DNA of 64,000 nt from Acidobacteriaceae bacterium. Its GTDB lineage: Bacteria; Acidobacteriota; Terriglobia; Terriglobales; Acidobacteriaceae. The translations under genes were made by a program, and so were the position numbers. Location of the stretch: positions 567,011-631,010 of the forward strand of contig PLCS01000007.1 in the NCBI GenBank assembly GCA_003134855.1, given 5' to 3'. Positions 4,676 to 20,354 of the stretch are shown piece by piece. Each line of letters opens with the position of its first letter. Position 1 is the first letter of the stretch. The notes below the pieces were generated by a model, which did no database searches, was not told the DNA's origin, and worked only from the letters and a program-made list of their open reading frames with translations.

Positions 4676-6067
4676 CTAAGAACGAGACGCGGCGATCATT
4701 CTTGCAGAAATGCCAAGGATAAGGCAGATAATGATATTCTGCAGATAGAAAGCGCCCCGTAAAGGGACGGAGAAATCCGCAGTATCCATTCCGTTCGCCA
4801 AACAATAGATAAGCAGAACCAGCGCGCATCGAAGCGTGTGGCGGGACGCACTGTCTGACGCCAAGGCCATATAAGTGTGCTCTTGTGCATAACGAAAACC
4901 TATCCTGAATATCTTTACCATCGTAATCAGATAGATCGTCAAGGCCAGCCATCCAGCATCTGCTAGAATATCGATAAAAGAGTTATGACCGTTGCCGATA
5001 CGGTTAACATTGACCTGTAGTCCGAGGGCGAAATACTGTCTGAAGATAATTCGGAAGCCGGCGATATATCCCATCCCTTGCGGGTGGTCCATGCAGTATT
5101 GGATAACAAATTTCCAAATGTCCGTTCTTCCGCTAGCGCTTGCTATGCCTTGAGAGCTTTGACCGCGGTTGAAGCTGTTCCACATGTGTTCCCCTCCGAC
5201 AACTCCCAAAAGCCCGCCAAAGAGCAATATCGAAGCCATGAATCCGGAAATAAACACGTACGCGGCGCGTCTGCTTGTCTTTGCCCATCCCGCAATAAGA
5301 ATTGCGAATGATAATATCAGGGCGAGTTCACTTCCTCTTGACTGCGTGATTACAGTACCCGTCAGGCCGACCAGAAAGAAGAACGTTGATCGAGCTTTGG
5401 ATTCGAGAGAATGCAGAAAGGCATATGCCGAAATAATCGCAATCAACGGACAGATCGCAGTTATAGGAGCAACAGCTCCTCCGGCAAGGCGTATCCCGAT
5501 TCCAGGTATAACTCTCATGACGAGAATTGGATTGATAAAGACGGTGATAAGAACCAGAAGGCAAAGTAGACATAATATCAACCTTAGATGAAGCAGGCAT
5601 TGTATCCAATCTGGCGGATTCCTATAAGCATCGACTATAAACTCTACGACGCAAATCCAGGTGAGAAAATATAGGATCGAGTATGCCGCCGAAACAAAGT
5701 GGCTGGGAGAGTATGCCGCGGATGCCAGGAATAACAGTCCGAGGAAAAAGGAATATCTAAGAATGGATCGAACCTGCTGAGGCATGAAGATTGTATGAGC
5801 GGAAGCTAAACGCAGGATCGCCCTAACGGCAATCAAGGCGAGCCAACCGACCTGGAAAAAAGACCAGATATCCACATTTCCTTTGGTTGCGTCAATCCCC
5901 TCGTTTGGCCTGAATATTGGCGGACCAAACGCCAGCAGAAAGACAGGGTACCTCCAAAGGAATCTCAGGAACGAAACGCGCCTATTGGACCTAGCTACTG
6001 GGATATCGACTTCGCTATTGCCAATCCATCGAGGAGATTGCATCATATACTGCCTTGTCCTGTTCAA
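4676..6067 (-). CDS. O-antigen ligase/polymerase-like membrane protein (Wzy-like)
   Basis: 463 aa multi-TM protein within the EPS cluster; GHNSFIDILADAGWLAL typical of the Wzy_C/WaaL family. Confidence 0.82.
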   Translation of the reverse strand: MNRTRQYMMQSPRWIGNSEVDIPVARSNRRVSFLRFLWRYPVFLLAFGPPIFRPNEGIDATKGNVDIWSFFQVGWLALIAVRAILRLASAHTIFMPQQVRSILRYSFFLGLLFLASAAYSPSHFVSAAYSILYFLTWICVVEFIVDAYRNPPDWIQCLLHLRLILCLLCLLVLITVFINPILVMRVIPGIGIRLAGGAVAPITAICPLIAIISAYAFLHSLESKARSTFFFLVGLTGTVITQSRGSELALILSFAILIAGWAKTSRRAAYVFISGFMASILLFGGLLGVVGGEHMWNSFNRGQSSQGIASASGRTDIWKFVIQYCMDHPQGMGYIAGFRIIFRQYFALGLQVNVNRIGNGHNSFIDILADAGWLALTIYLITMVKIFRIGFRYAQEHTYMALASDSASRHTLRCALVLLIYCLANGMDTADFSVPLRGAFYLQNIIICLILGISARMIAASRS

Positions 6068-6113
6068 ATAACTTCAACATTGCTAGTCTTGGCTGCCGCG
6101 GTCAAATCATAGA

Positions 6114-7316
6114 TTATCGTGCGGCGATGTGATTCGTCAGGCTGGCCCAGGATAACTCGTTATTTCTGGCAAGTGCTCCCATAGAAAGATGCTTCAACTC
6201 CGCGGCGGACAGTGTCCCCAGGGAGATCATGGCGTTCGCAATTCGGGTAACTATCTGCGCCTCATCGGCGTCTGCTGTTGGAATAATGATTCCACAGGAC
6301 GAGGTGACTATGATGCCGGGACCGCCGAGATCGAGACAGACCACAGGCGTTCCTTCCTGGAGCGACTCCAACACAGCGAATCCTCCGGAGTCATGAAGAC
6401 TGGGATAGACGAACGCGGTGTAGCTGTTAAGCGTGTCAACAAGCATCCACCGGGGGAGATAGCCGGCGAATACAACTGCATCAGCCACGGCGTATTTCGC
6501 AGCCACTTCTCGTAACCACTGCTCTTCTGGTCCGCACCCAATGAGAGTGAGGGTTACATCGGGAATAGTTTTCCGGGCTTCAGCGAGCGCCCGGATTGCG
6601 AAATGCACTCCTTTCCAATGAAGGAGGCGTCCGGCGAATATAAACCGAGGCAAGTCTGGCAGTCTTCGTTCATCGCAATGCGCCGTATGACTCATCGTAG
6701 CGATAGCCAGGTGCACCGAAGTCTTATGGCGCCATTTGGCTGGAACTAGTCGCAGACTGTCTGCCGTCGCCACATAAATATGTTCCGCAGCGGCAAACGC
6801 AGGACGAGTGAGTGGACTGTAGCGCTGGAATATAATTCCCAGATCGCGCAGAAGCTCGGTAACTTTGCCGCGACATGGCATACTGCGACGCAGGCGCAAG
6901 GGCGCGCGTTCTCCGCCTGCAATGGGCCCGACAATAAACGGCACTCCGAGCCGGCCCATAAAGGAACCGTACTGCATGCTGGCAAAGGTGACGTGATAGA
7001 CGCGGTCAAACGGCGTTATGCGATGGCGCCTGGCAGCCAGGCGGTAGGCCCCCCACTGCCAGAGGATGAAGTAAAGGGGATAAAACCAGGCTTGCTTTTT
7101 GAGTAACAGCACCCAAGGTGGAAGGTCATAATAGAGAAAATGCAAATCTGGAGCGCTGCTGAGAGGATCAGACTCGATCACCGCCTGATTATTGGAGCGA
7201 GTGAGAACCCAGACCTCGCCGGCCAACTCTGCCATATGCAGCGCTCTCTGCCAGCCGACCTCCGGCTCAGAGCCTTTTCCTGGCTCGCAAGCATACGCCG
7301 AAAGCAGAACTCTCAT
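6114..7316 (-). CDS. glycosyltransferase, GT4-like
   Basis: MRVLLSAYACEPGKGSEPEVGWQRAL and FVYPSLHDSGGFAVLESLQEGTPVVCLDLGGPG. Confidence 0.92.
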   Translation of the reverse strand: MRVLLSAYACEPGKGSEPEVGWQRALHMAELAGEVWVLTRSNNQAVIESDPLSSAPDLHFLYYDLPPWVLLLKKQAWFYPLYFILWQWGAYRLAARRHRITPFDRVYHVTFASMQYGSFMGRLGVPFIVGPIAGGERAPLRLRRSMPCRGKVTELLRDLGIIFQRYSPLTRPAFAAAEHIYVATADSLRLVPAKWRHKTSVHLAIATMSHTAHCDERRLPDLPRFIFAGRLLHWKGVHFAIRALAEARKTIPDVTLTLIGCGPEEQWLREVAAKYAVADAVVFAGYLPRWMLVDTLNSYTAFVYPSLHDSGGFAVLESLQEGTPVVCLDLGGPGIIVTSSCGIIIPTADADEAQIVTRIANAMISLGTLSAAELKHLSMGALARNNELSWASLTNHIAAR

Positions 7317-10232: not shown

Positions 10233-11336
10233 CTAGCTCTTCTGGTTGTAAAGAATATGATCGATGATATGAGCATATCCATCGACCACACAATTGGGGC
10301 CGGGCTCTTTGCGGGCACCCCAAAGATATAGCGTGCAATGATTCATCAGGTAAGCCAGAGCCTGCGAATACTCCTTGTAGCAAGCCTCCGGGCCAAGCTG
10401 CTGGCGGCATAATTGCAGCGTATTGCGCATCTGCTGGATCATATCTCCCTTCGGCCGGCTCTTCAAAACCATCGGCATCAGGGCAAAGTGGAGCGGGTCG
10501 AACAAAGGAAGCTGTTCATAGTCCGCATATTCCCAGTCGAAGATTCTGGCGGAGCCACTCTGCACGCGGATATTCCATGGGGTGAAGTCATTGTGCGCGG
10601 CCACAAACAGACTCGGCGGCCCGGAAAGCGACTGCTCGATTCTTTGCATCGCTGTCTCTATGCGGATCGACCATGCCTGGGTAAGTAGCCCGTCGAGATC
10701 CTTCAACCGCGAGTGTAGATTCCGGTACAGCCTGGAGTCTTCAAGCCTGATGGTCTGGCGCGAGTTCTCCTGAAACTTGCGTAGAAACGCGATGTGCAAC
10801 TCTCCGAAGTTATAGTCGAGCTTGCCGGGGAGCGGAGATTCCGCCACGAAGGAGAGATCCTCTACGGAGCGATGAGCTATCAGTTCGGGAACGTGGCCGG
10901 CCAGCGGCGCCTGACCGCGCAGCGTGTGTAGCCACTCCGCTTCGTTGCGGAGAAGGGAGTCAACGGCTTCTCCCGCGCCCGCCTTGACGATATACAGCGG
11001 CTCGGCGGAGTGATCCAACAACAGAATGGTGTCTTTGGACCACGGTCCGGGCGCCCCGATGCGACAACAGGACCATCCTGCTTCCTTGCCAATTGCCTGA
11101 CGGATGGAGACCATCTTATCGTCTTCCACGCAACTCGCAACGCCGAGCAGGCGCGGCAGGCGAGCCATTGCGCGCAGGGGAAATTCCAACCGGCCCGGAT
11201 GAAAGAGTTTCCAACAAGCCTTCTGCCCGGCGGCGTCGCGAGGAACGATAAAGCGCACCCGTCCATTCCAGCGCAGGGCGAGATGGGTTCCAGAAGGCTG
11301 GTCCGGCGCTCTGTAGAAACGGCTAACTTCAACCAC
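10233..11336 (-). CDS. APH/choline-kinase-like phosphotransferase in EPS cluster
   Basis: GTG start; C-terminal VAAHNDFTPWNIRVQSGSARIFDWEYADYEQLPLFDPLHF matches the HxDxxxxN + DxD APH catalytic motifs. Confidence 0.8.
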   Translation of the reverse strand: MVEVSRFYRAPDQPSGTHLALRWNGRVRFIVPRDAAGQKACWKLFHPGRLEFPLRAMARLPRLLGVASCVEDDKMVSIRQAIGKEAGWSCCRIGAPGPWSKDTILLLDHSAEPLYIVKAGAGEAVDSLLRNEAEWLHTLRGQAPLAGHVPELIAHRSVEDLSFVAESPLPGKLDYNFGELHIAFLRKFQENSRQTIRLEDSRLYRNLHSRLKDLDGLLTQAWSIRIETAMQRIEQSLSGPPSLFVAAHNDFTPWNIRVQSGSARIFDWEYADYEQLPLFDPLHFALMPMVLKSRPKGDMIQQMRNTLQLCRQQLGPEACYKEYSQALAYLMNHCTLYLWGARKEPGPNCVVDGYAHIIDHILYNQKS

Positions 11337-12006
11337 GATTGCCTTCGGATTCGATCACCGCTGTGGTGATGGCATGCTCAACATCCGTGATAACTTTGCC
11401 CAGCGGCTGCGAAGCGTCTACGATCACATAGTTTCGCTGCTTTCGGACCAGCGACAAGTATGCCTGGCGCTGCCGCGCACTTTCCTCGGCCTGAACCTCC
11501 TGCTTGCGCGCCCGCAGAATCTCGGTCGGGGCATCCAAGAGCACCCACAGTCTTGGCCTGGGCATGAGGGTTCCGATGAGCCGGGCTATACTCATCGGCC
11601 CTCCGTAGCGATACCGGATAGGGTCAACCAGGAGATCATGATAGTAGCGATCGCAGATGAGCAACACCGCCTTTTTATCCTGGAGGAGATATGCGTACCA
11701 CTCTTCCAGGAGCCAGACGAATATCTTTGCAACAGAAGTCAGCGCCGAGCGAGGCGGCATGCAGTGAGGAACGGGGTTAATCAAAACCGGCGCGCCGCGC
11801 CGTGGCCGGACATAGAACGGCTTCAGGTGGCGCATCTTCACGACGCGCCCAGCCTGAATCCAACTCCCCATGAACCCCTGAATGACAGAGCTTTTGCCCG
11901 CTCCATCTGGGCCAAGAATTACGATTCTCAGTTTGAGGTTCTCCTTAGAAGCGATTCTTGAGCTTCCTGTCTGTGCGCTGGGCGAGCATATGAATGATTG
12001 CGGCAT
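11329..12006 (-). CDS. thymidylate-kinase-like P-loop kinase
   Basis: LRIVILGPDGAGKSSVIQGF (Walker A), LLICDRYYHDLLVDPIRYRYGG, LRARKQEV lid-like segment; start ambiguous (see findings). Confidence 0.82.
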   Translation of the reverse strand: MPQSFICSPSAQTGSSRIASKENLKLRIVILGPDGAGKSSVIQGFMGSWIQAGRVVKMRHLKPFYVRPRRGAPVLINPVPHCMPPRSALTSVAKIFVWLLEEWYAYLLQDKKAVLLICDRYYHDLLVDPIRYRYGGPMSIARLIGTLMPRPRLWVLLDAPTEILRARKQEVQAEESARQRQAYLSLVRKQRNYVIVDASQPLGKVITDVEHAITTAVIESEGNRG

Positions 12007-13330
12007 ACGCCTCTTCTGTGACGCTGGTGACTGGCTTACTTGCGTCGAGGATGATGTGTTCTTTTCTAGTCTTTACGAAGGAGCGGTAGGCTTCAATTTT
12101 CCTGAGTGTTTCCCCTGATGGAAGCTCCGGGGGCCTCGGTTGCAAAGCATCTGCTGCCGGGTCCAGCAATATCCACAGATCGGGAGACGGAAATAGCTTG
12201 CCAACGAGACGCGCAAACCACCTGGGGCCGCAATATCGGCATCTCTTGGGGTTGATGAACAGGTCGTGGTAATAGCTCTCGTGGAGGTGAAGTGTGATAT
12301 TTACCTTTTCGGCGAATTTACTACGCCACTCAGCCACCAGCCACAGGACGGCGTTGGCCATGGAGGTAAACGCCCCGCTTGAACCTTCCGCTGGGGAATC
12401 CGCGCGCGCGGCATTGCCTATTGGCCCTCCAGCAAGAGGCAGACGTTGCCGGAGTGGGATCTTCTCAACTACCTTGGCCGCGGATTCCAGCATGGGCCGC
12501 AGGTTTTCGATGATAGTTGCATTGCAGCCCCCGTCCGGGCCCAGAATGCACACCGTTTCAAGAGTCTTTGGTGAAAAACGAACGATAAATTCCCGCGCAT
12601 AGTATTGAGCAATCGACAAAGGACCGCGGAACGGCCCATGCTGCAGACTGCGCAGAATCAGCGAAGCACGCATAGCTGTTACGCAACCCAGCAACTTCAA
12701 GCGGTCGCCAGCCAACACCGCATCCACCAGCCGCGTTGCCAGCTTCCGCCCGAATTGGCGCGAGAGGATGGCAGCCGTCTCGGTGCTATTGCCGGCGATC
12801 GTTTGTTGCACCCGGGGAAAGTACTTTTCCTTCACCCGGCCGCCAATCAGCAGCGTGGCCAGCAGGGACGTGATTGCCTCGTAAACCGGAGAAGGAACAA
12901 AGAAGTGAAGAGCGCCGGCGTTCCGCGGAATCACGGTTTGCAGCATCTTGCCGGCCGGCAGGTAGGGAAGCTTCTTCCAGCTCAGGGATAAAAAGAAGTC
13001 GATCTGGAGCGACCGGACCCCCGGAGCAACGGAAACTCCTTCCACATACGCGATTGCCCCAGCGGGAAGTTCGCAATAGCCGACGATGCGAATGCCTGGA
13101 ATGGAGCGAAGCCCGCGGATCGCAAGCGGCAACTGGGTAGAACCAATCATTAGATCCATATCGTTGCCGTTGTTATTCTCCGGGAATCCCTCATAATTCC
13201 GCAAGACGCAGTAGCGTACTCCCTCCGCTTCAAGCGCCTGAAAAAGGGACGCCAGGAATTCACCGAAGGGGAGAGCCGGCGGCTGCCGAAGGGAGGGTGC
13301 GTTCATCGACTCCTGTAACTCCATTTGCAT
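11945..13330 (-). CDS. nucleotidyltransferase-like N-terminal domain fused to a degenerate thymidylate-kinase-like domain
   Basis: N-term YCVLRNYEGFPENNNGNDMDLMI (GxDxD NTase-like); C-term VCILGPDGGCNATII ... HESYYHDLFINPKRCRYCGP aligns with the neighbouring kinase but lacks the Walker A Lys. Confidence 0.75.
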   Translation of the reverse strand: MQMELQESMNAPSLRQPPALPFGEFLASLFQALEAEGVRYCVLRNYEGFPENNNGNDMDLMIGSTQLPLAIRGLRSIPGIRIVGYCELPAGAIAYVEGVSVAPGVRSLQIDFFLSLSWKKLPYLPAGKMLQTVIPRNAGALHFFVPSPVYEAITSLLATLLIGGRVKEKYFPRVQQTIAGNSTETAAILSRQFGRKLATRLVDAVLAGDRLKLLGCVTAMRASLILRSLQHGPFRGPLSIAQYYAREFIVRFSPKTLETVCILGPDGGCNATIIENLRPMLESAAKVVEKIPLRQRLPLAGGPIGNAARADSPAEGSSGAFTSMANAVLWLVAEWRSKFAEKVNITLHLHESYYHDLFINPKRCRYCGPRWFARLVGKLFPSPDLWILLDPAADALQPRPPELPSGETLRKIEAYRSFVKTRKEHIILDASKPVTSVTEEAYAAIIHMLAQRTDRKLKNRF

Positions 13331-13386
13331 TCTTCATTCTCTTAGAGGCTTGATCGGCCGATTGCCGCTCACCTGCCGGTAATCCG

Positions 13387-14331
13387 TCACGTGCGGCGAA
13401 GCAGCAGCTTCGAGGTGATTTGCGGGAAGGTATAGCCAGGCTGCAAGATCAAAGCCGCAATGAGTGTTGGAGCAAGCAGATAGTACCTGTGCTCGGCAAA
13501 ATGAAAAACTGCGGCCTTGTAAAGCACCTTGGCCGTGTCCTTGCGCCACGCGTTGGCTCGCACATACCACGGCAGCGTCCGGCGATAACTACAATACTCG
13601 TCCCAGGATAATTCCGATTGACCGCTGCGCCTGCGCAACAAGCTGTCCTTATACCAGTGCATCTGTTCACGGATATGCCGCGGTCGGGCAATGCAAACTG
13701 ATTCAGAATGAATGCGGTACTTGACGAGGTACTCCGGCTGGATAAGTATTTTGCAGCCTGCCTCCAACAGCCGGTTCCACATATCTACGTCCTCGCCCAC
13801 GCGGAACTGCGCGCGATAGCCTCCAACTGCCAGCACCGCGCTCTTGCGCATCAGCGCCGTGCAGGAGTTGAACCCGATCAACTCATTCGCCTGATAGAGC
13901 TTTTGCACGGCCTCATGCGTGACCAGGGGCGATTCTCCCTTGCCGATAATTTTTCCCTGGCTATCGATGTGCAGGCACCAGCCGCCCGCTACAGACAACT
14001 CCGGGTGCTCTTCCAGGAAAGCCACGTTGCGTTCGAGACGGTTGGGCATCAGCACATCGTCTCCCTGCATCAGGGCCACCCACTCGTTGGCGGCGAGCGC
14101 GAATCCTCGATTCAGTGTCGCCGCGACACCCATGTTGGGATGCGATTCGACGCGCACGCGTGCATCGAGAAGAGCGTAGCTTTGGGCGATCTCCCGGGTG
14201 CGGTCCTGAGATCCATCGTCCAAAACAATCAGCTCGAGATTCGTCCAGGTTTGCGCCAGCACGCTTTCGATCGCTTCGGCAATGAATCGCTCTTCGTTGT
14301 ATGCCGGCATGATGACAGATAATTGCATCAT
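13387..14331 (-). CDS. glycosyltransferase family 2
   Basis: MMQLSVIMPAYNEERFIAEAIESVLAQTWTNLELIVLDDGSQDRT; GAGGAG RBS just upstream of the ATG at 14331. Confidence 0.95.
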   Translation of the reverse strand: MMQLSVIMPAYNEERFIAEAIESVLAQTWTNLELIVLDDGSQDRTREIAQSYALLDARVRVESHPNMGVAATLNRGFALAANEWVALMQGDDVLMPNRLERNVAFLEEHPELSVAGGWCLHIDSQGKIIGKGESPLVTHEAVQKLYQANELIGFNSCTALMRKSAVLAVGGYRAQFRVGEDVDMWNRLLEAGCKILIQPEYLVKYRIHSESVCIARPRHIREQMHWYKDSLLRRRSGQSELSWDEYCSYRRTLPWYVRANAWRKDTAKVLYKAAVFHFAEHRYYLLAPTLIAALILQPGYTFPQITSKLLLRRT

Positions 14332-15525: not shown

Positions 15526-16854
15526 TCACTCAGCCGCGGCGGGAGATTGCGCCAAAAGAGCCGCTTGCTGCCCAACGCGGCGCGCTTTCAGCAGCAGAGA
15601 AATGCCGACGATGCTTTGAAAGAGAATCTGCGCTCCTAGGAGTCCGAGCAACGAACCGCTAATGCCCAGCCTCTTGGCCAGCGGTCCCGCAAAAGCGAGC
15701 GCAAAAGCCGTCATAGCCAGGTAAGACCAGAAGATCGGCACGGTAAACTCCAGCGCCTGCAAGCCGGCGCGCAACGGGCCGCCCACAAAGACAATGACAT
15801 AAAGCAAGGCATACAGCCGCAGGATGTAGCCGTACTGAACCATCTCAGGCGAGTAGATCAACTTCAGCCAGAAGCCCGGCGCCGCCGCCATGACGATAGC
15901 GAAGAGCAAGGTCAGCCCGCCCCACTTGAGCAGAATCGACCGCGTATAGGCCAGCATCGAATCCACCCCGCCCTTCCGCAGGTGGCGCGCTGTCTCCACC
16001 GGAACGATGTTATCCAGCCCCTGAAACCAGACGTGGGTCACGCCCATCAGGTTCTGCGAGGCCTTCAGAACGCCGGCCGCGGCGGCTCCATAATAGACCG
16101 GAGCGGAGAGCAGAAAGATATTGCTGGAGGTCCACACCAGCAATGCCGATCCGGTAAGCCAGCGGGAGACTCTCCAGTGGCGCAGCGAGATCGACTTGAT
16201 CCACTCCCAACTGAATTCGAGCGGCTCCATCCAGAACCATCCCGGCGCCAGGCCAAGGATCGAGGTGCCCGCCATGGTCCATAGCGCGGTCACGCTGTTC
16301 AGATGCCCCGCATGATGCAGCAGGAAGAGGATCGGCAACTGGGTCAGATAGCTGAGAACGTCATCGGCCAGGGCGCGGCGGCTCTGCCGAGTGGCGAAAA
16401 AGTAGCGCCGGACAAAGTCCTGCATCTGATAGGCGAACGCGGAGACCGCTAGGGGAAGCGCGAGCTGTTGCAAATTCTTATGAGGAAAGAAGTTACTGGA
16501 GGTCTTGAGGGCGAGCAAGACCAGAACGAAGCAGCAGGAAACAAGAACCAGTTCCTGGAAGACGACGGCGCCGAAGTAGGAAGGCCTGTCCTTCTCTTCC
16601 TGCTTGGGGCCGATGCTCATCATCGGCGCGACAATCAGCGCGGTCTGGAGGCTATTGACGAAGAGCACCGACATCCAGGCCAGCGTGAAGACGCCAAACT
16701 CGCGCAGGCCCATGAAGCGGAGGAGCATCACATTGGTGAGGAAGTTCGTCGCGCTGACCACCGCCTGGTCGGTCAGCGCCCAGGTTTCCCGCCCCAGGAA
16801 TTGGCGAAGCAAGCCACTCTGAATTCGCTCCTCAAGCGCGGCTTTCTCACTCAT
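15526..16854 (-). CDS. polysaccharide flippase (Wzx/MATE-like)
   Basis: 442 aa, ~12 hydrophobic segments, located in EPS cluster. Confidence 0.82.
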   Translation of the reverse strand: MSEKAALEERIQSGLLRQFLGRETWALTDQAVVSATNFLTNVMLLRFMGLREFGVFTLAWMSVLFVNSLQTALIVAPMMSIGPKQEEKDRPSYFGAVVFQELVLVSCCFVLVLLALKTSSNFFPHKNLQQLALPLAVSAFAYQMQDFVRRYFFATRQSRRALADDVLSYLTQLPILFLLHHAGHLNSVTALWTMAGTSILGLAPGWFWMEPLEFSWEWIKSISLRHWRVSRWLTGSALLVWTSSNIFLLSAPVYYGAAAAGVLKASQNLMGVTHVWFQGLDNIVPVETARHLRKGGVDSMLAYTRSILLKWGGLTLLFAIVMAAAPGFWLKLIYSPEMVQYGYILRLYALLYVIVFVGGPLRAGLQALEFTVPIFWSYLAMTAFALAFAGPLAKRLGISGSLLGLLGAQILFQSIVGISLLLKARRVGQQAALLAQSPAAAE

Positions 16855-17020: not shown

Positions 17021-18055
17021 TCAGGGATGCGAGACGATGGCCGCCGAGGCTGCGGAGGAGATAATCCCCGTAGCCGTGGAGAACGTGGCCTTGACTTTGC
17101 TCATGGGCACATAAACGATGTCCTGCGCTTGCAGCAGGAGCGGCGTCTGGGTTCCCTTGGTAATGGCGTTATAGGAGAGGGGAAAATCCAATACGGTTCC
17201 GTCTGGATTGCGGCGAATCACCCGCAGGCCGCCGGTGTTGGCCTGGAGAACCGTTCCTCCGCTGAGGGCCAGGGCCTGGGCGACATTCAACTTTCCGTCT
17301 TCCTGCATCACGTAACCGCCCGGCTTGTTGACCGCGCCCAGAATATAGACGATGCCGGCGCGCGGAACGATGACCGAGTCGCCGGGGCGCACGAGAATGG
17401 AGGCTGCCCCCCGGGAGTTCTGACTGCGAGAATAAGGAACATCTTCCTCCGGCACGGCGTCATTGGCTCCATGGCGGATCTTGATGCGCGCGCCCGCCAG
17501 AGGAGTCACGCCGCCGGCTTCGGCAAGAATCTCGCCGAGCGTTGTGGGGGCGATCAGCGCCACCCGCCCCGGGGTGACGACTTCGCCCATGACCGTCACG
17601 TATTGGCCGGCAAACTGCGCCACATCGACATTCACCTGCGGCTGGACCAGTATCTGGCCGTTCTTGAGAGCCGCCTCCAGGCGCTTGGCCGCCTCGGTCA
17701 GGGTCAGCCCCAGAAGATTCACTTTGCCGCAGAGGGGAATCGTCAGGTCACCGGCAGGGTCTACGCGATACGAATTGGTGAACTCGGGAGCGTCGTAGAC
17801 GCTGACGTTCAACAAGTCTCCCGGCGCGATGCGCAGTTCGGATAAGTCCTTGGGAACGACGATGGGCCCCTGCCCTTGAGAGGGGGCTTGGGTCTTGCTG
17901 GAGGAGGAAGCCAAGCCTGCCGTGGCAGTCGAAGCAGTTGAGCCGCCCGGCACCTGAGCATTTCCCGGCACAGTCATCATCGCCGGCAGCAAGACGGCGC
18001 CGAGCAGAAGCAGAAGGCCGCTGCTGAAAGCTGCCTTAGGTTGTCTTTTCGCCAT
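17021..18055 (-). CDS. polysaccharide export protein (Wza/BexD, SLBB)
   Basis: LRIAPGDLLNVSVYDAPEFTNSYRVDPAGDLTIPLCGKVNLLGLTLTEAAKRLEAAL, YVTVMGEVVTPG; signal peptide from MAKRQPK... Confidence 0.93.
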   Translation of the reverse strand: MAKRQPKAAFSSGLLLLLGAVLLPAMMTVPGNAQVPGGSTASTATAGLASSSSKTQAPSQGQGPIVVPKDLSELRIAPGDLLNVSVYDAPEFTNSYRVDPAGDLTIPLCGKVNLLGLTLTEAAKRLEAALKNGQILVQPQVNVDVAQFAGQYVTVMGEVVTPGRVALIAPTTLGEILAEAGGVTPLAGARIKIRHGANDAVPEEDVPYSRSQNSRGAASILVRPGDSVIVPRAGIVYILGAVNKPGGYVMQEDGKLNVAQALALSGGTVLQANTGGLRVIRRNPDGTVLDFPLSYNAITKGTQTPLLLQAQDIVYVPMSKVKATFSTATGIISSAASAAIVSHP

Positions 18056-20354
18056 AATAGCTCTGCACATTGTAGCCATACACGCTCCGATACTCAGTTG
18101 CAGACATATCCACCGCTTCAATCACGAGGCCGAGAATATGAATGCGGTTCCGGGCAAGGGTCTGGACAAAGCGGCGCAACGCCTTTCGAGAAGTACGGCC
18201 GGCGCGCAGCACGCCGATGGTTCCATCGCAGTGCGTTCCCACGATAATCGCGTCGGCGACCGGCAAGACGGGCGGGTTGTCGATAAAGACCAGGTCAAAC
18301 CGCTGCCGGGCAGCTTCAATGACCTTTTCGATCTCGCCCGCTCCCAGCAGCTCGGAGGCAAGCGGGGAGTTGCGGCCGGAGGTTAACACGAAGAGATTCG
18401 GCTCGATGGGATGCGGCTTGATGGCCTCGTCAAACGATTTCATGCCGGCCAGGACATCTGCCAGCCCATCTTCGCGCCCTACGCGGAAGAGGGAGTGCAG
18501 CCGGGGGCGGCGAAGATCGGAGTCGATGAGGAGCACGCGCCTGCCGGTGGCGGCAAAGGCAAGCCCCATGTTATAGACGGTAAAAGATTTGCCTTCTCCG
18601 GGAAGAGCGCTGGTAATGGCCAGAACGCGGAGCTTTCGCCCTACGCCGGAGAGAGTCAGTCCGGAGCGCAAGCTGCGGAAGGATTCCGATGTGGCGCTTT
18701 CCGGAGCGATCAGGAAGGGGCTGGATTCGGCTGCCATGGCGCCTTCCCGCATTTTTGGCTCCATGCGGTGAAATGGAACCATGCCCAGGACCGGCAGGTT
18801 GGCCACCGTTTCCACTTGAAAGCTGTCCGCCAAAGTGTCATCCTGGCTTTCCATCAGATAGGCCAGGCTGACGCCCAGGAAAAGGCCGCCCAAAATACCG
18901 AGAACGATAAACAGAACAGGCTGCGGCATATACGGCTGGCCGGGAGGCCGCGCGGGATTGGCGACGGTAACATTCGTCGCGCTGTTGCCGGCATCGATGT
19001 TCGCTTCCTGCAGCTTGGCGTAGAGAAGGTCATACAAGTCGCGGCTGGAGCGGGCCTGCGCCATGAGAACGCCCAACTGCACGACATCATAGTTCATCTT
19101 GCTGGTCACGAGCTTTTGCGCTTCGAAGGCGGCGCGCAGAGCCTGTTCGTTCTGCTGCGCCAGGACAAGATCGTTCTTCGCCCGCTGCTTGATCTTTCCC
19201 ATCTCGTTTTGTATCTGCTCCTGAATCGACTTCACTTGATTGGCGATGTCAGCCAAACGGGGATTTTTGGAGCCATACTTGGTTTCCGCACTGGCATACG
19301 CCACCCGCGCCGTCGCCTCCTGCTGGCGCAGAGCATCCAGGATTTCCAGGCCGCCGCCCTGAGAGAGGACTGTAGAGCCGGAAAGTCCGGGAAGAGAACT
19401 GGAGCCGAGCGAAGAGATCAGATCCGGATTCTCCGTTGCCGTCAAACGGTAGACTGCCTCGCGCCCCATGCGCGCGGCTTCCGCCTGGGTCACCTCGTCA
19501 TTGAGTGTCGTGAGACGCTCTAGTTCCGGTATGGACACAGAACCGCCGCCCCCGCCCCTGCCGCCGGATGAAGATGCAGAGCCGCCGCCTAGTGTCGCCA
19601 GGCCCAGCATCGCGGCGGAAAGATTGTGTGAGCGCTCGAACTCCGCAACGGCCTGCTGGGTTTTGGTTACCTGGCCGGAAAGATCGCCTAGCTGGGCAGA
19701 AAGCCACTGCGAGACTTCCTTGGATGAATTGAAGTTAGAGTTCAGCAGATAAGACCTGTACTCGGCAACCACCTGATTGGCCACCTGCGCGGCCTGCACC
19801 GGATCCCTGCTGGTATAGGTAATAGCAAGGAGGCGTGAACTCCCAACCTCTTCTACCTTGAGATGCGCCTCGAAGTTGCTAATCAGGTCTTCGCGCTGCG
19901 CGGCGGGCAGGTCTTCCGGTTTATTTACCAGGGGCCCCGGCTCCTTGCTGAACCGGTCAGGATTCTCCAGCCGCAGCATTCCCATCTTGCCGAGTACAGC
20001 CAGGGCGATCGAGTCGTCCTTGATGACCGCGGTTTCGGTTTCAACCTTTATTTTCAGCTCATCCGCGTGCCCTCCTCCCATCGATGCCATGCTGGAGAGC
20101 GCGTCGGCCGCGCTGGCAGATTTTTCGTTGAGCTCGATCATGGCGGTAGCGCGGTATCTCGGATGCATCAGAACGCAAACAAGGACCGCTAATAGCCCGC
20201 AAAAGACCGTGCAACCGCCTACAAGATATTTCCGCTTCCATGGAACCAGCGCTAGCTCGCGCAGAGATACCTGGTCTTCGGGATCGAGGAGGCGGCTGCC
20301 TTCAACAAGCCGGCCACTGAGGCTGCCCGATTGCGTTTCATTCTGTTCTCTCAA
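18036..20354 (-). CDS. polysaccharide co-polymerase / tyrosine autokinase (Wzc/BY-kinase)
   Basis: N-term Wzz domain; LAITSALPGEGKSFTVYNMG (Walker A), RVLLIDSDLRRPRLHSLF (Walker A'), C-terminal Tyr cluster YRSVYGYNVQSYYGEKTT. Confidence 0.95.
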   Translation of the reverse strand: MREQNETQSGSLSGRLVEGSRLLDPEDQVSLRELALVPWKRKYLVGGCTVFCGLLAVLVCVLMHPRYRATAMIELNEKSASAADALSSMASMGGGHADELKIKVETETAVIKDDSIALAVLGKMGMLRLENPDRFSKEPGPLVNKPEDLPAAQREDLISNFEAHLKVEEVGSSRLLAITYTSRDPVQAAQVANQVVAEYRSYLLNSNFNSSKEVSQWLSAQLGDLSGQVTKTQQAVAEFERSHNLSAAMLGLATLGGGSASSSGGRGGGGGSVSIPELERLTTLNDEVTQAEAARMGREAVYRLTATENPDLISSLGSSSLPGLSGSTVLSQGGGLEILDALRQQEATARVAYASAETKYGSKNPRLADIANQVKSIQEQIQNEMGKIKQRAKNDLVLAQQNEQALRAAFEAQKLVTSKMNYDVVQLGVLMAQARSSRDLYDLLYAKLQEANIDAGNSATNVTVANPARPPGQPYMPQPVLFIVLGILGGLFLGVSLAYLMESQDDTLADSFQVETVANLPVLGMVPFHRMEPKMREGAMAAESSPFLIAPESATSESFRSLRSGLTLSGVGRKLRVLAITSALPGEGKSFTVYNMGLAFAATGRRVLLIDSDLRRPRLHSLFRVGREDGLADVLAGMKSFDEAIKPHPIEPNLFVLTSGRNSPLASELLGAGEIEKVIEAARQRFDLVFIDNPPVLPVADAIIVGTHCDGTIGVLRAGRTSRKALRRFVQTLARNRIHILGLVIEAVDMSATEYRSVYGYNVQSYYGEKTT

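Follow-up and report, generated by a model that had tools for sequence, protein, structure and literature searches.

Organization of the locus

The window, that is, the whole stretch of 64,000 nucleotides of the Acidobacteriaceae contig analysed here, includes an exopolysaccharide (EPS) locus. Export genes of EpsE type and Wzc-like genes occupy 17021-20354, a Wzy_C/O-antigen-ligase family protein is encoded at 4676-6067, and further genes code for glycosyltransferases of families GT2 and GT4, for FkbM methyltransferases and for SDR epimerases. The original prediction placed in this locus three minus-strand open reading frames (ORFs) that would form an undescribed modification module. The three ORFs are all present, and are listed here with their domains and with two other genes of the locus.

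11945-13330, minus strand: gene 1, a fusion of a nucleotidyltransferase (NTase) and a degenerate thymidylate kinase (TMK)-like domain (pseudokinase), 461 aa
12602-13261, minus strand: pol-beta-type NTase domain of gene 1, residues 24-243, with the catalytic D57, D59 and D111 present
11960-12556, minus strand: pseudokinase domain of gene 1, residues 259-457, with the P-loop K/S, DR and LID residues lost
11941-11946, minus strand: Shine-Dalgarno-like AAGGAG, 9 nt ahead of CTG 11931-11929
11329-12006, minus strand: gene 2, a P-loop kinase of thymidylate-kinase-like type with its motifs intact, called at 225 aa, about 200 aa from the likely CTG 11931 start
10233-11336, minus strand: gene 3, an APH-fold phosphotransferase with HNDFTPWN and DWE motifs, 367 aa, model pLDDT 93.5
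6114-7316, minus strand: partner GT4 glycosyltransferase, motif YACEPGKGSEPEVGW
15526-16854, minus strand: Wzx-type flippase, of a family fused elsewhere to module domains

Scans for tRNA and Rfam families gave nothing relevant. A long antisense ORF (11374-11961, plus strand) runs across the kinase gene; such ORFs are typical of GC-rich coding DNA and it was not counted as a gene.

Tight overlaps between the genes had also been proposed, and of these the one of 8 nt (11329/11336) holds if the GTG start is used. The overlap of 62 nt (11945/12006) is probably an artefact of the ORF caller, because the homologous stand-alone kinases begin at the position of CTG 11931-11929, 9 nt behind AAGGAG; the counterpart of this codon is ATG, TTG and CTG in the related loci L058, L054 and L048, respectively.

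The nucleotidyltransferase domain

Gene 1 taken alone has no match in Pfam or NCBIfam. Across 42 homologues drawn from many phyla, residues D57, D59 and D111 show no or almost no variation, and gene 1 meets the criterion of the pol-beta NTase superfamily, i.e., a catalytic DxD and a third Asp on a later strand. The order of strands and helices of the NTase in the model of the fusion (pLDDT 88) is also compatible with a pol-beta NTase. When the profile of the gene 1 NTase family was compared with proteins of the uncharacterised nucleotidyltransferase family NTP_transf_5 (PF14907), the active-site strand and the DxD motifs were aligned with an hhalign probability of 92-95%. The two differ in that the window NTase remains under the Pfam threshold, with the PF14907 gathering cut-off of 31.2 bits reached by no part of the window fusion and matches found in only 4 of the 42 homologues (best E 0.0049), and in that the window family is kinase-linked in nearly all the loci seen. 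A Foldseek search with the fusion gave only nucleotide or nucleoside kinases among the matches listed, nearly all of them TMKs; the assignment of the NTase fold is therefore based on the profile comparison and the conserved residues. A few NTase domains look catalytically degenerate, e.g., that of L064, so that certain loci may do without the NTase step.

The live kinase and the pseudokinase

Gene 2 retains the complete set of motifs of the thymidylate-kinase-like P-loop kinase that it had been predicted to be, namely the GPDGAGKSS P-loop, DRYYHDLL and the LID motif RKQEV. At the corresponding positions the C-terminal half of gene 1 reads GPDGGCNATI in the P-loop, ES in place of DR and RPPEL in place of RKQEV, in agreement with the proposal that an NTase-like half is fused here to a degenerate kinase. 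The degenerate half shares 34% identity with gene 2, which marks the two as paralogues. Gene 2 scores 27.9 bits against Thymidylate_kin (PF02223), above the gathering cut-off of 27 (Pfam 2e-6), and this family is matched by 39 of 42 homologues of the fusion at E ≤ 0.1. With dTMP kinase it shares the fold, the P-loop with a carboxylate, the DR motif and the LID arginine region; however, it is below the TIGR00041 cut-off of 83.25 bits (29.8 bits with hmmscan), it is tied to EPS loci and its family is fused to an NTase. The possibility that it is the housekeeping TMK was rejected, given its 18.9 bits in the genome scan against the same cut-off and the presence elsewhere in the genome of the true dTMP kinase (G000:C8:369593-370213, 161 bits against TIGR00041). 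The same genome has, outside the window, a second non-canonical TMK-like kinase with the motif DRYTYDELAN (G000:C9:249714-250409; L065 7619-8374).

The window variant belongs to a clade of six sequences, two of which are identical copies of one genome, with a support of 100/99; in this clade the fused kinase is degenerate, and a separate intact kinase follows the fusion wherever the locus is visible. In the whole tree a degenerate fused kinase arose at least four times (starred branches), and in each case, where this could be checked, an intact kinase of the family is present elsewhere in the locus or in the genome. The degenerate class takes in L050 and L059, for which the live kinase is encoded at another site of the genome or by a second fusion. 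Locus L059 contains two NTase-kinase fusions (5631-7082 and 12044-13483), one of them with degenerate kinase motifs. Between the window and L048 the pseudokinase is 50% identical and the live kinase 66%, from which it follows that the pseudokinase evolves faster; its frame stays open and shows an excess of third-position changes, which indicates that it is not in plain decay. Together these comparisons establish that the kinase was duplicated in the lineage of the window, that the fused copy died, and that the separate live kinase supplies the activity. Given that TMKs are homodimers, it is inferred that the dead copy may have been kept as a structural partner of the live kinase, and the two would pair as a heterodimer that keeps the NTase and the kinase in one complex, for which there are no heterodimerisation data.

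The APH-type phosphotransferase

Gene 3, predicted to be an APH-type phosphotransferase with intact HNDFTPWN and DWE motifs, agrees with this description. It reaches 39.3 bits against APH (PF01636), whose cut-off is 23.2 (Pfam E 8e-10), and 29 of 33 of its homologues match the same family at E ≤ 0.1. The residues K118, E132, H248, D250, N255 and D267, which comprise the catalytic Lys, the Glu, the H-x-D, the Asn and the second Asp, are invariant in the family. Its model, obtained separately from that of the fusion, matches the structures of aminoglycoside phosphotransferases and of homoserine kinase. A role as an aminoglycoside resistance enzyme was rejected, as no NCBIfam resistance model matches gene 3, with only a weak match to GntI; likewise, none of the PADLOC models of anti-phage defence matches any of the three proteins.

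Co-occurrence, distribution and fusions

Of the 298 genomes of the order, 21 match the NTase-kinase profile strongly (E below 1e-40). The APH family profile is also found in 21 genomes at E ≤ 1e-12, with nothing listed between 3e-36 and 1e-12, and the two sets of genomes are identical (Fisher 1e-32; this value is descriptive, without correction for phylogeny and with genomes that are not independent). In most of these 21 genomes the two genes are adjacent. The GT4 family of window 6114-7316, with the motif YACEPxxGSEPxxGW, reaches E below 1e-120 in 19 of the 21 genomes that have the module, as against 2 of the 277 without it, and the Wzx-like family of window 15526-16854 gives a high score in 15 of the 21 and 12 of the 277. 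The N-terminal motif of the GT4 subfamily is invariant, and this enzyme accompanies the module across phyla as a fourth component linked to it. The Wzx-like flippase itself has no Pfam or NCBIfam match.

The cross-phylum scan of genome contigs used a profile of the kinase only, which also left the test of association with the NTase and the APH free of bias; genes in the related loci were called by greedy or six-frame procedures, with no trained gene finder. At least 80 loci were recovered from at least a dozen phyla and from the archaeon Ca. Argoarchaeum, and the true distribution is wider. The phyla among the matches listed are Acidobacteriota, Pseudomonadota, Bacteroidota, Verrucomicrobiota, Bacillota, Melainabacteria/Cyanobacteria, Nitrospirota, Planctomycetota, Chloroflexota, Rhodothermota, Myxococcota, Thermodesulfobacteriota and Binatota, with others. 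Among the 80 matches listed, many of them on short contigs, 76 have the NTase (67 in the same ORF as the kinase), 60 the APH and 51 the GT4 family; 8 of the 47 long loci among the matches listed have no APH in the stretch examined.

The commonest form consists of one NTase-kinase gene and one APH gene. Other arrangements include triple NTase-kinase-APH fusions (L086, L092 and L110) and APH-NTase-(degenerate kinase) fusions accompanied by a separate live kinase (L060 and L102). The Wzx family is fused in the order NTase-kinase-Wzx (L064 and L116), Wzx-kinase (L084) or Wzx-APH (L098), and module domains are also fused to GT4 (L095, L118 and L115), GT11 (L144), hexapeptide transferases (L077 and L090) and an initiating polyprenyl glycosylphosphotransferase (L127). 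On annotated plasmids the fusion appears as a "hypothetical protein" and the APH as a "phosphotransferase", with a flippase, an EpsG-type polymerase or export genes as neighbours. Cultured non-pathogens that carry the module include Flavivirga jejuensis, Novimethylophilus kurashikiensis and Leisingera sp. M658. In two loci of Akkermansia type (L131 5104-8621 and L140 5040-8627) the module, with one GT4 (and a GT2), is beside apparent succinate dehydrogenase genes, and no export genes were seen nearby. Locus L108 is GC-rich and unlike the other Akkermansia loci; its label as Akkermansia muciniphila may be wrong.

The original prediction would have been refuted by a lack of conserved co-occurrence across genomes, or by each family being well characterised in an unrelated process, and neither was the case: the genome sets coincide, the families lie together in EPS loci of many phyla, fusions occur in several permutations, and no described function was found for the families. 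The three families almost certainly constitute one functional module. Co-inheritance was thus borne out, and what has to be revised is the natural unit, which is three domains in two genes plus the partner GT4, with the three-gene layout as a derived state. A literature search restricted to open-licence PMC papers, where absence is no proof, gave no description of the module; a paper on the Akkermansia capsule mentions an aminoglycoside phosphotransferase beside cps1 and describes no such module (PMC13343947). The components look like known enzyme folds in an undescribed and widespread combination in EPS loci.

Possible functions of the module

The evidence given above demonstrates that three enzymes whose catalytic residues are intact (an NTase, a TMK-like kinase and an APH-type kinase) are inherited together as adjacent or fused genes, and that they are linked to a single GT4 family and in many cases also to a Wzx family. 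That the module phosphorylates a glycan or a carrier, or activates it with a nucleotidyl group, is an inference. The explanation that we favour, tentatively and with somewhat less than even confidence, is a cytoplasmic module of three activities in Wzx/Wzy-type polysaccharide assembly, with the lipid-linked repeat unit as its most likely substrate. The APH enzyme and the TMK-like kinase would make successive phosphorylations on one substrate, and the NTase would transfer a nucleotidyl, or a similar phosphoryl, group onto it; the lipid-linked unit would be modified near the GT4 step, ahead of flipping, although no evidence on the substrate exists. The reason for favouring this substrate is the nature of the fusion partners, most of which are assembly enzymes that act at the membrane on the growing lipid-linked unit. 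Kinases of similar fold that act on glycans or glycolipids include the LPS and O-antigen kinases WaaP, KdkA, WbdD and LpxK, and POMK-fukutin; however, no sequence membership in these groups has been shown for the window proteins, and to our knowledge none of them has been linked to an NTase-TMK fusion. Against a lipid-linked substrate it should be considered that no homologue of known function is close to the module, and that free nucleotides are the substrates of the nearest relatives of the kinase, and small molecules mostly those of the APH fold, so that a soluble substrate fits at least as well.

The main rival, possible though we give it less credit, is a salvage-like synthesis of a soluble activated donor. 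Here a sugar or polyol would be phosphorylated by the APH, the TMK-like kinase would contribute a further phosphate or regenerate the nucleotide, and the nucleotide-linked donor for the GT4 would be produced by the NTase. The near-strict pairing with a single GT4 family is consistent with this scheme, as is the fusion of the three enzymes to each other, which is frequent for consecutive soluble steps; moreover, the APH structures nearest to the gene 3 model act on small molecules (aminoglycosides and homoserine). The salvage pathways of AmgK/MurU and of the bifunctional Fkp follow the same logic of a kinase plus a nucleotidyltransferase, sometimes fused, but at least one of their enzymes has another fold, the window module has a third activity, and no sequence relation was seen. 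Known sugar-1-phosphate NTases also differ in fold from pol-beta NTases, the loci showed no epimerase or dehydratase as a consistent partner, and with a soluble donor it is hard to explain why module domains are fused to Wzx and the initiating sugar transferase.

The other two functions are less likely than those based on a lipid-linked unit or a soluble donor. In a decoration similar to LicABCD, the APH would phosphorylate a small alcohol and the pol-beta-fold domain would move the phospho-alcohol from a nucleotide carrier to the glycan. LicA choline kinase is among the PDB sequence matches of the APH profile, 7 of 33 APH members weakly match Choline_kinase, and LicD, which like other LicD/fukutin-type proteins acts as a transferase, also has the pol-beta fold. 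Gene 3 shares with APH, choline kinase and LicA (PF01636 and PF01633) the kinase fold and catalytic motifs; nevertheless, its family stands apart from these, has a long extension at the N terminus and is co-inherited with the NTase-kinase, and it has not been shown together with LicB, LicC or LicD. Since, in addition, no LicC-type cytidylyltransferase or choline/polyol transporter was noted in the loci (without a systematic search), the NTase profile matches PF14907 while LicD is not among the families listed for NTase members, and the TMK-like kinase has no counterpart in LicABCD, we consider this function improbable. Even weaker is the case for a regulatory module, in which phosphorylation or nucleotidylation of proteins would control EPS assembly without a biosynthetic role: the APH fold is related to protein kinases and pol-beta NTases include protein-modifying regulators such as GlnE, yet the fusion partners are glycosyltransferases, an initiating sugar transferase and Wzx rather than regulators, and no consistent regulatory partner is found in the loci. 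Finally, the idea that unrelated kinase genes, mobile or carried as cargo, came to lie together by chance is conceivable in EPS loci that are variable and swap genes and for a module with a patchy distribution (21 of 298 genomes of the order), but it is refuted by the perfect co-occurrence in those genomes, the repeated fusions in several permutations and the counts of loci across phyla, and can be practically disregarded.

Returning to the lipid-linked repeat unit, a more specific and rather speculative form of this explanation, which we would not rate as likely, is that of an undescribed and widespread system that adds a phosphorylated and nucleotidylated substituent, perhaps of the nucleotide-diphosphate type, to the lipid-linked units before flipping, by means of a complex of NTase and kinase, with one half of the kinase dimer taken over by a pseudokinase on repeated occasions. 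The enzymes of capsule and EPS synthesis are usually thought to be catalogued, i.e., the glycosyltransferases, Wzx, Wzy, Wzc and the NDP-sugar pathways. The reaction of the module would predict a chemical modification in many environmental and gut polysaccharides that structural work has not sought, and the repeated split into pseudokinase and kinase represents a natural experiment on the subfunctionalisation of an enzyme dimer.
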